Assembly (NCBI RefSeq): GCF_003171655.1
Contig: NZ_QFZL01000003.1
Coordinates: 124,001 to 188,000 of the forward strand
Direction: 5' to 3'
Origin: Stakelama portus
GTDB taxonomy: Bacteria; Pseudomonadota; Alphaproteobacteria; Sphingomonadales; Sphingomonadaceae
DNA length: 64,000 nt
The notes below the pieces were generated by a model. That model was not told the origin of the DNA and searched no databases. It worked only from the letters and a program-made list of their open reading frames with translations. Positions 14,548-16,528 of the stretch are shown here, one piece after another. The position numbers were made by a program, and so were the translations under genes. Every line of letters starts with the position of its first letter. Positions within the stretch are counted from its first letter, which is position 1.

Positions 14548-15219
14548 ATGCAGGGATTGTTGCACTGGTTTTCGGGGCTGAGCGCACAAAGCTGGGCCAA
14601 TATCATTGCCTTCACTGGCTTTGTGCTCGCGCTGTGGAGCTATAATCGCCAGCAGAACAAGGACCGCAAGGTCGAGCGGCAGGAAAATTACCTGCGTCTC
14701 GAACTCGAATCGAACGCGGTGTTTCGCTTCGAGGCCGAGCATGGCGACACGCTGCTCGAATATAAGGCACAGACCCGGCCCAGCTCCTATGTTCCCGATG
14801 CGCAGCGCGACGGCGTCGCCGATCAGTTTTTCCTGCAACAGCTCAACCTGTTCGAAATCGCCACCCGGTCGCGCCGCCGCCGCACGGTCGAGCCACAGAT
14901 ATTCGGGTCTTGGGTCATCTGGTTCGAAGCGGTGATCCACAGCTGGTGGTTCCGCCAGCGCTGGGTCGAGGATTATGCCGATAACTACACGATGGACCTC
15001 TATGCGATCTTCGCGCCTTCGGTCGCCGAATATGACGAGATGCTGATCGAAACCGCCGCCGCCGATGCCGAGGAACGCGAAGCCGCGGCGGAGCGTTTCC
15101 GTCGCCGTTTCTTCAGTCATGTCGCGGCACAGATGCAGTGCGGCGAGATATTGAAATGGCTCGATCGTCCCGCGGAGATGACAATGCAATCCTATCGAAA
15201 CCGTCGCCATGGCGTCTGA
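14548..15219 (+). CDS. Orphan membrane-anchored protein of unknown function
   Basis: I do not recognise a family. The 223-residue product has one N-terminal membrane helix (about residues 13-32, SWANIIAFTGFVLALWSY), then a basic stretch and a soluble, mostly helical domain. The latter is rich in Arg, Glu and aromatic residues (WVIWFEAVIHSWWFRQRWVEDY) and has a charged helix near residues 170-195. The topology resembles small one-helix membrane proteins annotated as DUF4760-like, but I cannot confirm that. ATG at 14548 is preceded by GGGGGAGG. It overlaps the following GNAT gene by eleven bases, so the two are probably coupled. Confidence 0.7.
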   Translation: MQGLLHWFSGLSAQSWANIIAFTGFVLALWSYNRQQNKDRKVERQENYLRLELESNAVFRFEAEHGDTLLEYKAQTRPSSYVPDAQRDGVADQFFLQQLNLFEIATRSRRRRTVEPQIFGSWVIWFEAVIHSWWFRQRWVEDYADNYTMDLYAIFAPSVAEYDEMLIETAAADAEEREAAAERFRRRFFSHVAAQMQCGEILKWLDRPAEMTMQSYRNRRHGV

Positions 15220-15715
15220 TCCCGCGCCCCTATTGGCATGGGCGGACAGCCAGGAGGACCGGCGCGATGCGGCGCGGTTTTTCGCGCGCGTGGTGCGTGC
15301 CGACCCGGCCTATATCTCGCATGGCGAAATCCAATGGGCACTCAGCCCCGACGGGGTGCGTTGGGCACCCGATCTGGAGGCACGGCTCGAACGCGAATTT
15401 GCCGGAAGCGACGCGCCGGCGCTGCTGGTCGCGCGGCTCGACGGCGCGCTTGCCGGTGCCGCTTCGGTTTCCTGGATAGAAGACGCGCCGACTCCCCATG
15501 GCGTGCTCAACGACCTTGCCGTTGCTCCCGAGGCGCGCCGCCACGGCATTGCCCGAATGCTGGTGGCGGCAGTCGAGCAGCGCGCGCGCGAACGCGAAAT
15601 CGGCTGGATGTTCCTCGAGAGCGGGCTGGGTAACGAAGGCGCACATCGTTTCTTCGAGAGCGAGGATTATGCCCCGGTGTCGAAAGTGTTCGCAAAACGG
15701 CTTACGCGCGAGTGA
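15209..15715 (+). CDS. GNAT family N-acetyltransferase
   Basis: Acetyl-CoA-dependent acyltransferase of 168 residues. The acetyl-CoA pyrophosphate loop is visible as LAVAPEARRHGIARMLVAAVEQRA (R-x-x-G-I-A), followed by the family's C-terminal strand and helix in GWMFLESGLGNEGAHRFFESEDY. The acceptor substrate is unknown. The ATG lies inside the end of the upstream membrane-protein gene. The stop is only 19 bases before the CTAG that marks the left end of the palindromic element. Confidence 0.88.
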   Translation: MASDPAPLLAWADSQEDRRDAARFFARVVRADPAYISHGEIQWALSPDGVRWAPDLEARLEREFAGSDAPALLVARLDGALAGAASVSWIEDAPTPHGVLNDLAVAPEARRHGIARMLVAAVEQRAREREIGWMFLESGLGNEGAHRFFESEDYAPVSKVFAKRLTRE

Positions 15716-15776
15716 CCGTTCCGGTTGCCCGAGCCTAGGTCGTGAACCCATAAAGGGCGCCGTCGAGGTTTGAGGC

Positions 15777-15856
15777 AAAATGGCTCAGCTCAAGGAGGCA
15801 GGGCGCAGGAATATGTCGATATTCCAAGCTCTGCCGACGCAGCGCTGGGCCATTTT
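15777..15856. repeat. First internal stem-loop of the MITE-like element
   Basis: Arms AAAATGGCTCAGC (15777-15789) and GCTGGGCCATTTT (15844-15856) pair at 12 of 13 positions. Further in, GGCAG (15797-15801) pairs with CTGCC (15831-15835), and GGAATAT (15808-15814) pairs perfectly with ATATTCC (15819-15825) around a GTCG tetraloop. The whole forms one long interrupted hairpin. Confidence 0.7.
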
Positions 15857-15875
15857 GGCCAAATCCCTTCGGGAC

Positions 15876-15969
15876 GCCGGAATGGCTTCCATCTCGGCCC
15901 AAAGCGGCCTTGGAAGGGCGCCCAGCCCTCCCGGCGGCCGCTTTGGCCCGAGATGGAAGCCATTCCGGC
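15876..15969. repeat. Second internal stem-loop of the MITE-like element (34-base arms)
   Basis: Arms at 15876-15909 and 15936-15969 are inverted copies matching at 33 of 34 bases, separated by a 26-base loop. Such a long near-perfect arm would extrude as a strong hairpin in DNA or RNA, and the single mismatch suggests recent origin or selection for pairing. Confidence 0.8.
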
Positions 15970-16000
15970 GCCTCGGCGATGCCGTTTATGGGTTCACGAC

Positions 16001-16456
16001 CTAGTTCGCCTGCGCCTCAAGAACGAGCTGCATGAATTCGGGATTGGCGACCAGATGGCCGACCAGCCCGCCAACCTGTCGGACCACGGCAGGATTCTGC
16101 ATCAGGAAACCGGTCGATTGCGTGCCGAAATCGCGGAAGCTCTGGCCGAATCCGTTCGATCCCTCGGTCTTCAGCACAGCCACCGCTTCCGACCGGCAAT
16201 CGTCCGTTATCAGCCGTTCGAACAGCGCCGCGGCCCGCGCAGTCAGTTCGGTACGCTGTTCGTCGGAGACATTGGCAAGATCGGCAACCGCCGGATGCGC
16301 GGTGATCGCACCGAACGTCCAGCGGATCAGGACGACGCGGTCGGCATCGCTGGTATGGCTGACCAGACATTGCGTAAGCGCCTGGCCCGTCGGGCCTTCC
16401 GCAGGCACCTGTGGCGAAACCAGTACGAGCAGCGCAGCCAAACCCGAAATCAGCAT
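16001..16456 (-). CDS. Secreted protein of unknown function, stop codon inside the element's target site
   Basis: I do not recognise the family. The 151-residue product starts MLISGLAALLVLVSPQVPAEG, a signal peptide, and continues as a helical domain with two Cys (QALTQCLVSHTSDADRVV and TDDCRSEAVAVL) that could form a disulfide. The ATG at 16456 follows GGAGGGGGA; an earlier in-frame M lacks such a site. Its TAG stop is part of the CTAG duplicated at the right end of the palindromic element, so insertion left the protein intact or moved its original end only slightly. Same strand as, and 72 bases downstream of, the exonuclease gene. Confidence 0.72.
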   Translation of the reverse strand: MLISGLAALLVLVSPQVPAEGPTGQALTQCLVSHTSDADRVVLIRWTFGAITAHPAVADLANVSDEQRTELTARAAALFERLITDDCRSEAVAVLKTEGSNGFGQSFRDFGTQSTGFLMQNPAVVRQVGGLVGHLVANPEFMQLVLEAQAN

Positions 16457-16528
16457 GACGAATCCCCCTCCCGAAGAACGCCGGAACTTTGGCACAACCG
16501 CATAGGAACGCCACGAAAATCGGCAGGG

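Follow-up and report, generated by a model that had tools for sequence, protein, structure and literature searches.

REPINs are inverted pairs of REP hairpins in a mobile unit. The palindromic unit of a REP measures 20 to 40 bp (available part of PMC3733652). Hairpin MITEs such as Correia, ERIC, RUP, and QMITE2 are small, non-coding, dispersed, and defined by their ends, and a stable transcript fold is typical of them (available part of PMC10969869). IS427-group elements of Paracoccus are 832 to 865 bp long, mostly generate 2-bp duplications, and in some cases have two overlapping ORFs (accessible sections of PMC3281130). Hairpins can also be created and maintained by template switching, as stated in the accessible text of PMC8794818.

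The element described here lies in a 64,000-nucleotide stretch of Stakelama portus DNA, referred to as a whole as the window, and resembles each of these systems in part. (i) Like Correia, ERIC, RUP, and QMITE2, it is small, non-coding, dispersed, end-defined, and stably folded, but it differs from hairpin MITEs in that a constant interior with non-canonical loops is found under many terminal sequences, is mirrored, and follows a strand rule for wobble pairs. (ii) It resembles REPINs in having an inverted hairpin pair in a mobile unit; instead of short REPs, however, it has arms of about 100 nt within 264 bp, which lie outside the REP size range, together with IS427-like ends and a TA duplication. 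(iii) With the IS427 group (e.g., L104 and L311, the latter on a Sphingomonas paeninsulae plasmid), it has in common the terminal repeat GGTCGTGAACCCATAAA, the TA duplication, and a YTAR target. Whereas compact IS427 elements carry transposase frames in the approximately 821 to 823 bp between their ends, the window element has no transposase and, unlike these elements, has two ends of the same type. (iv) As in RNA stems kept by template switching (accessible text of PMC8794818), a single event appears to have copied arm onto arm in the window copy, although here the event removes a loop still present in the relatives. We consider it likely that the element is a TA-duplicating miniature element of the Sphingomonadales with IS427-like ends and two mirrored modules of about 107 nt that are conserved as folded strands. 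Its features are as follows.

15736-15737: left TA target duplication (flank comparison of 25 copies and the empty site in G292)
15738-16001, plus strand: mobile element proper, 264 bp, GG...CC (TA/GG boundary in most copies, empty site, commonest length in the family)
15738-15768, plus strand: left terminal inverted repeat and outer stem (GGTCGTGAACCCATAAA...), the same end being found on IS427-group elements
15767-15873, plus strand: module A, i.e., the left arm and the CCCTTCGGG mini-hairpin, read on the top strand (covariance model R2, covariation)
15865-15873, no strand assigned: CCC-TTC-GGG mini-hairpin between the arms, close to the center of symmetry
15874-15972, minus strand: module B, the right arm, an apparent inverted copy of the module read on the bottom strand (model R2)
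15952-15958, minus strand: healed tract in the right arm, perfectly complementary to 15887-15893
15971-16001, minus strand: right terminal inverted repeat and outer stem (inverted-end and fold computation)
16002-16003: right TA target duplication, completing with the terminal C of the element the TAG that ends minus-strand frame 16001-16495

Boundaries, copies, and mobility

The element sits between the stop of frame 15209-15715 (plus strand), read as a putative GNAT acetyltransferase from its sequence, and the minus-strand frame 16001-16495. The source genome contains nine full-length copies, including that of the window, to which the other eight are 93 to 96% identical; a tenth copy is cut by a contig end, and there are many shortened copies besides. 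The end GGTCGTGAACCCATAAA, with at most 2 mismatches, was found at 44 sites of this genome and a reversed control pattern at 0. Full-length copies elsewhere are 75 to 77% (G278) and 91 to 94% (G292) identical to the window copy. Alignment A1 comprises the 25 full-length copies of these three genomes, with shorter or contig-cut copies left out. At the one empty site examined, the same locus in G292 reads without interruption ...CCTA/GTTCGCC... and has one CTAG, and the last approximately 25 bases of the left flank ahead of CCTA align with small gaps. A reading of the window made from the sequence alone (the sequence-only reading) had named many copies and empty sites in relatives as marks of a mobile element; nine full-length copies and one empty site were found, and the palindromic element is mobile.

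The perfect 20-base inverted ends reported in that reading were borne out (15735-15754 and 15985-16004), and the inversion extends to 34 bases at 88%. Its proposal that CTAG is duplicated at each side was wrong. The three bases outside the 50 ends of A1 were CTA in 34 cases, TTA in 10, ATA in 2, and others without TA in 4; the copies thus have TA/GG...CC/TA in common, and the next base outward is variable. Given this variable outer base and the single CTAG at the empty site, the duplication is confined to TA. The element inserts at CTAG/YTAR and is limited to 15738-16001. The resulting duplication of 2 bp agrees with the value given for the IS427 group (accessible sections of PMC3281130). Shortened copies without most of the right arm are of two types, each present at two sites with an identical junction, which speaks against a strict requirement for both arms in movement.

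Several observations were made in passing. Two full-length copies lie in opposite orientation 1.4 kb apart in the source genome (G000:C10:763538-765512). Three derivatives of 52 to 53 bp consist of little beyond the two ends (G000:C11:381882-381934, C12:584609-584660, and C15:181383-181435), and the junction of the C12 derivative lies at a direct repeat, CCAT, as though slippage had removed the arms. At window position 15755 (A1 column 21), immediately after the left-end AAA, a change from C to G recurs in two species; its carriers are the window copy, L008, L147, L150, and L154.

IS427-type ends and transposase partners

The terminal repeat of the window copy is identical over 17 bases to IS427-group ends, and that of most other copies over 20. 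Six same-genus elements sharing this left end were inspected. Four of them (L079, L086, L097, and L104) show a second end, the variant GGSCGTAGACTCATAA, and are flanked by TA at either end; they span 821 (two elements), 1128, and 1167 bp. Pfam profile PF13340 matched a fragment of L104 and PF01609 a fragment of L079, and L104 (in G140) has two overlapping frames. Closely matching ends, on elements of 823 bp, were also observed at two of nine plasmid loci (L311 and L312, from Sphingomonas paeninsulae and Blastomonas), both annotated as 'IS5 family transposase'. No module was seen in L104. The earlier suggestion of a non-autonomous IS5-type element is thus supported by the many copies, the empty site, the TA duplication, and ends in common with the IS427 group of the IS5 family.

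IS630 elements also insert at CTAG with duplication of TA, and the TA duplication within CTAG would therefore suit an IS630/Tc1-type MITE as well. Against this, the transposase-bearing elements with the ends described here are IS5-type, by Pfam (L104 and L079) or by annotation (L311 and L312), and among the elements seen with these ends none carries an IS630-type transposase; we consider an IS630 origin very improbable. Under the preferred reading, an IS427-type transposase would move the element in trans via its ends. The source genome, in which four small contigs read N, showed no intact IS427 transposase flanked by such ends; PF13340 has three matches there, and the match with a fitting end is decayed. 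Nor did 200 further genomes from the genus yield an intact version of the contig-end elements with similar ends. The element fits IS5-family MITEs by every testable feature save the intact partner.

Other elements with related ends were encountered. The ends of contigs C4, C5, C13, and C14 of the source genome (L054:5063-5186, L055:1-124, L066, and L067) have the same end and a different interior; the contigs break within this other repeated sequence, and in L055 a frame ending in WGDDFLKLASRFDDAIADL and a stop lies close to the contig end. Same-genus elements of 547 to 768 bp (L080:975-1521, L083:1501-2096, L087:754-1521, and L108:965-1521) have one end like GGTCGTGAACCCATAAACGACCGCT and another like GGTCGTAGACTCATAAA. 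Their open frames are not transposase-like by eye, and they are perhaps single-gene passenger cassettes on IS427-type ends; one flank of the L080 element is CCA instead of TA. On the Sphingopyxis indica plasmid pMC4 (L319:639-1769), the element begins exactly where the TA border of an IS5 family element lies, the latter being 863 bp long and having other ends, and an annotated L,D-transpeptidase gene stops on the opposite border of the miniature element. The far side of the 863-bp IS carries a GGGTCAGGACCC-type end and arm-like sequence, and the IS seems to lie between two such elements.

Fold, covariation, and the order-wide family

The extensive folding noticed in the sequence was confirmed by calculation, since the single-stranded DNA folds at -117.6 kcal/mol compared with a mean of -53.5 (standard deviation, 4.0) for shuffled sequences, none of 200 of which was as stable. 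Two interior hairpins were likewise confirmed, at 15767-15866 and about 15874-15972. Module A contains the internal loops CAAGGAG/CGACGCNG and CGCAG/CAAG.

The near-perfect pairing of the right arm, in contrast, holds for the window copy and not as a general trait. Bases 15956-15958 of the window are unique among the 25 full-length copies, and base 15952 differs from 23 of the 24 other copies, being common to one G292 copy. Together, these bases make the right arm a perfect complement of 15887-15893 and erase a TTC/TTC loop (GAA/GAA on the bottom strand). All 24 other copies are unpaired at the three pairs concerned, most with TTC facing TTC; the near-perfect right arm is therefore a peculiarity of the window copy. 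In paired columns, all six differences between the window copy and the majority of its lineage gain pairing, four of them within the 7-base tract, as compared to 9 gains, 35 losses, and 6 neutral changes in the 12 other copies of the lineage. The simplest reading of these alignments is that a single arm-templated event made the healed tract.

Covariation in the arms across copies, which the sequence-only reading had put forward as a sign of a selected structure, was detected in the 25 copies and again order-wide. In A1, 25 of 112 pairs are changed on both sides, corresponding to 184 such cells, compared with 1 to 41 when partners were slid. In the comparison of copies, one double change repaired a pair and one broke a pair, whereas one-sided changes led from Watson-Crick to mismatch (4 cases), from wobble to mismatch (2), from wobble to Watson-Crick (4), and from Watson-Crick to wobble (2). 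Covariation alone is no proof of selection, because template switching can yield it too.

The wider family was traced with a left-arm covariance model, R1. It matched 2 of 121 genomes in a sample of the genus and 39 of 196 in a sample of the order, the source genome included in both cases; the latter matches belong to 18 of 63 genera. Plasmids of Novosphingobium, Sphingopyxis, and Sphingobium yielded 6 matching records, and in 3 of these the match spanned 80% or more of the query, whereas a phage collection gave no match and viral contigs searched for the tip pattern gave none. Of 80 regions fetched, we removed 3 without an end repeat (two at a contig end), 4 judged by hand to be truncated or unclear, and 1 with fewer than 20 of 30 outer pairs. 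To the remaining 72 we added 13 elements (4 from the source genome, 6 from G278, 1 from G038, and 2 from plasmids) and omitted 3 short ones; the resulting 82 elements contain a non-redundant set of 49 that are mutually less than 88% identical.

A number of features emerge from these data. (i) The lengths of the relatives are mostly 262 to 279 bp, and 28 of the 49 non-redundant elements measure exactly 264 bp. (ii) The outer 20 bases of the 49 elements have a mean pairwise identity of 0.45 and a self-complementarity of 0.964. In G462, three end types surround one interior, and the G038 element (263 bp) has other ends (GGCGGCGTGGACAAATTCC) with the same plan and TA flanks. As the terminal sequence varies and the modules stay, different transposases may have taken over the same interior, and the ends would have been exchanged or have drifted round it. 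(iii) Pairing-preserving double changes were observed at 38 of 39 pairs of the left-arm module in an alignment of 99 modules (A4), which consists of left arms and about a dozen right arms and was fitted to its structure. These changes amount to 728 cells, compared with at most 192 for slid and 148 for shuffled partners. (iv) The letters conserved across the 99 modules form the two loops named above for module A.

We also considered whether the locus encodes a product of its own. The window copy has an open frame of 63 codons (ATG 15813 to TAG 16004) that many 264-bp relatives retain intact or almost intact, as would suit a small protein gene, but in G038 it is shut after 11 codons, and differences are distributed evenly over codon positions (2890/3534/3255; 310 pairs, 32 elements). 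We reject the peptide on the basis of this flat distribution, a protein of this kind being barely credible; the element is without a protein of its own. A search of the window region against Rfam 15 gave 5 matches, none at the gathering score, the best being a microRNA hairpin model (38.1 of 142 bits, E 2.4e-6), and ten relatives gave none at E 0.1. The structured RNA gene that had been suggested is not supported as a plain gene, because the element is mobile and the modules are mirrored; what survives of this idea is that a folded single strand seems to be under selection.

Mirrored modules and the strand rule

The arms had been described as unrelated. This is correct for the plain sequence of the window copy but not for the family, in which the right arm is, judged by model matches, the left-arm module inverted. 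The evidence comes from a broader covariance model (R2), trained on A4 including the dozen right arms of other elements. We applied it to 33 of the 80 fetched regions, whose own right arms were outside the training set, and at E 0.01 the right arm was matched on the bottom strand at 31 of 33 loci and on the top strand at 0 of 33. As a control, the left arm, being palindromic, was read backwards and passed E 0.01 at 15 of 33 loci, with about 19 to 29 bits. The weaker scores of the right arms (23 to 52 bits) overlap these values; because the backward left arm passes, scores of 23 to 34 bits alone mean little, and the argument is carried by the strand contrast. In the window, module A scores 115.9 bits and module B 58.3 bits on the minus strand, and each of the two is itself among the 99 training rows.

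The two arms also differ in the mismatches that they tolerate. In the 49 non-redundant elements, the left arm contains 84 G-T and 13 A-C mismatches and the right arm 24 and 97, whereas the outer stem of the same elements is nearly balanced (23 and 26). G-T wobbles thus predominate in the left arm when it is read as the top strand and in the right arm when it is read as the bottom strand. The counts were obtained from a plain alignment of the stem sides, and a mismatch was typed only where at least three of its four neighbors matched. The asymmetry derives in part from a few conserved positions and from related elements, shared descent reducing the number of independent events; counted by position, a weaker test, the ratios of G-T to A-C are 20:5 on the left (p 0.004) and 10:24 on the right (p 0.024). 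Left arms were found through the top-strand model, which favors G-T, whereas right arms were not so found. In the first 25 copies alone, counted per copy, G-T exceeds A-C in the source genome, and the two are nearly equal in G278; the asymmetry emerged plainly only once the order-wide elements were counted. Fold energies point the same way: 47 of the 49 left arms are more stable as the top strand, and 44 of the 49 right arms as the bottom strand. CAAG follows the tip on the 3' side, read on the arm's own strand, in 32 of 49 left arms and 37 of 49 right arms, compared with 0 and 1 on the other strand. A GAA/GAA pair of sites occurs in 29 of 49 elements. Because strand-neutral processes such as template switching and double-strand recognition should not yield opposite wobble rules in the two arms, these comparisons point to selection on a folded single strand.

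This result bears on one alternative, an ordinary MITE whose hairpins are kept complementary by arm-to-arm template switching during replication, with no selection on the fold. The window copy shows an apparent event of this kind, with all six paired-column differences gaining pairing, and template switching can make and keep hairpins (accessible text of PMC8794818). As a process that we take to be strand-neutral, it should nevertheless heal loops and equalize G-T and A-C, whereas the TTC/TTC region is unpaired in 24 of 24 other copies, GAA/GAA and the CAAG near the tip persist at the frequencies given above, and the two arms, unlike the symmetric outer stem, follow strand rules of opposite sense. 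We regard this alternative as quite unlikely.

A further possibility, raised for a recombinase in the sequence-only reading, is that a recombinase or a replication factor recognizes the hairpins as single-stranded DNA, as in REPIN/RAYT or attC systems. On the strand on which it is read, each module is close to the 5' end, the mirrored pair resembles a REPIN, and G-T is the milder mismatch in DNA also. The ends, the TA duplication, and the empty site, in contrast, fit a DDE transposase, and derivatives without most of the right arm are present at more than one site; this alternative appears unlikely. Under the reading preferred here, each module would act as a folded single strand, the left arm as the top and the right arm as the bottom strand, as the wobble rule suggests. 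With this arrangement, RNA polymerase that transcribes inward from either flank reaches the arm of that flank first. The most probable role, to which we give about even odds, is that the modules act in read-through transcripts of the neighboring genes, where they might insulate, protect, or process the 3' end and so render insertions tolerable; that they act instead as single-stranded DNA in transposition or replication is possible but rather doubtful. A role in read-through transcripts fits a preference for gene ends, where TA/G recreates a TAG stop. Open frames of at least 100 codons that end at this junction number 23, compared with 10 and 9 in the other frames; for frames of 55 codons in 69 relatives the numbers are 75, 58, and 39, and the preference is thus modest. 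TA flanks are present on both sides in 43 of these relatives, on one side in 21, and on neither in 5.

No paper on sphingomonad MITEs was found among the matches listed, in a search that lay mostly outside subscription journals, and a search on fold-back protection of transposase mRNA returned nothing useful. As far as these searches go, the repackaged, mirrored, strand-coded interior is new. The hairpins of MITEs are commonly regarded as passive palindromes. In this family, the contrary wobble rules of the arms and the neutral outer stem provide a built-in control that separates selection on a folded strand from the mere upkeep of a palindrome. In the window copy, an apparent template-switch event ruins a conserved loop while perfecting the palindrome, which is a caution for covariation evidence generally. 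We suggest tentatively, with slightly less than even confidence, that the cargo is no gene or enzyme and consists of mirrored, strand-coded folding modules that are conserved order-wide and repackaged under many transposon ends, the cargo rather than these ends being the conserved replicator. If this is true, the same structure would be encountered whichever flank transcription (or single-stranded DNA) came in from. The function of transposon hairpins would then be directly testable in sphingomonads, where structured cargo would outlive its transposon ends.
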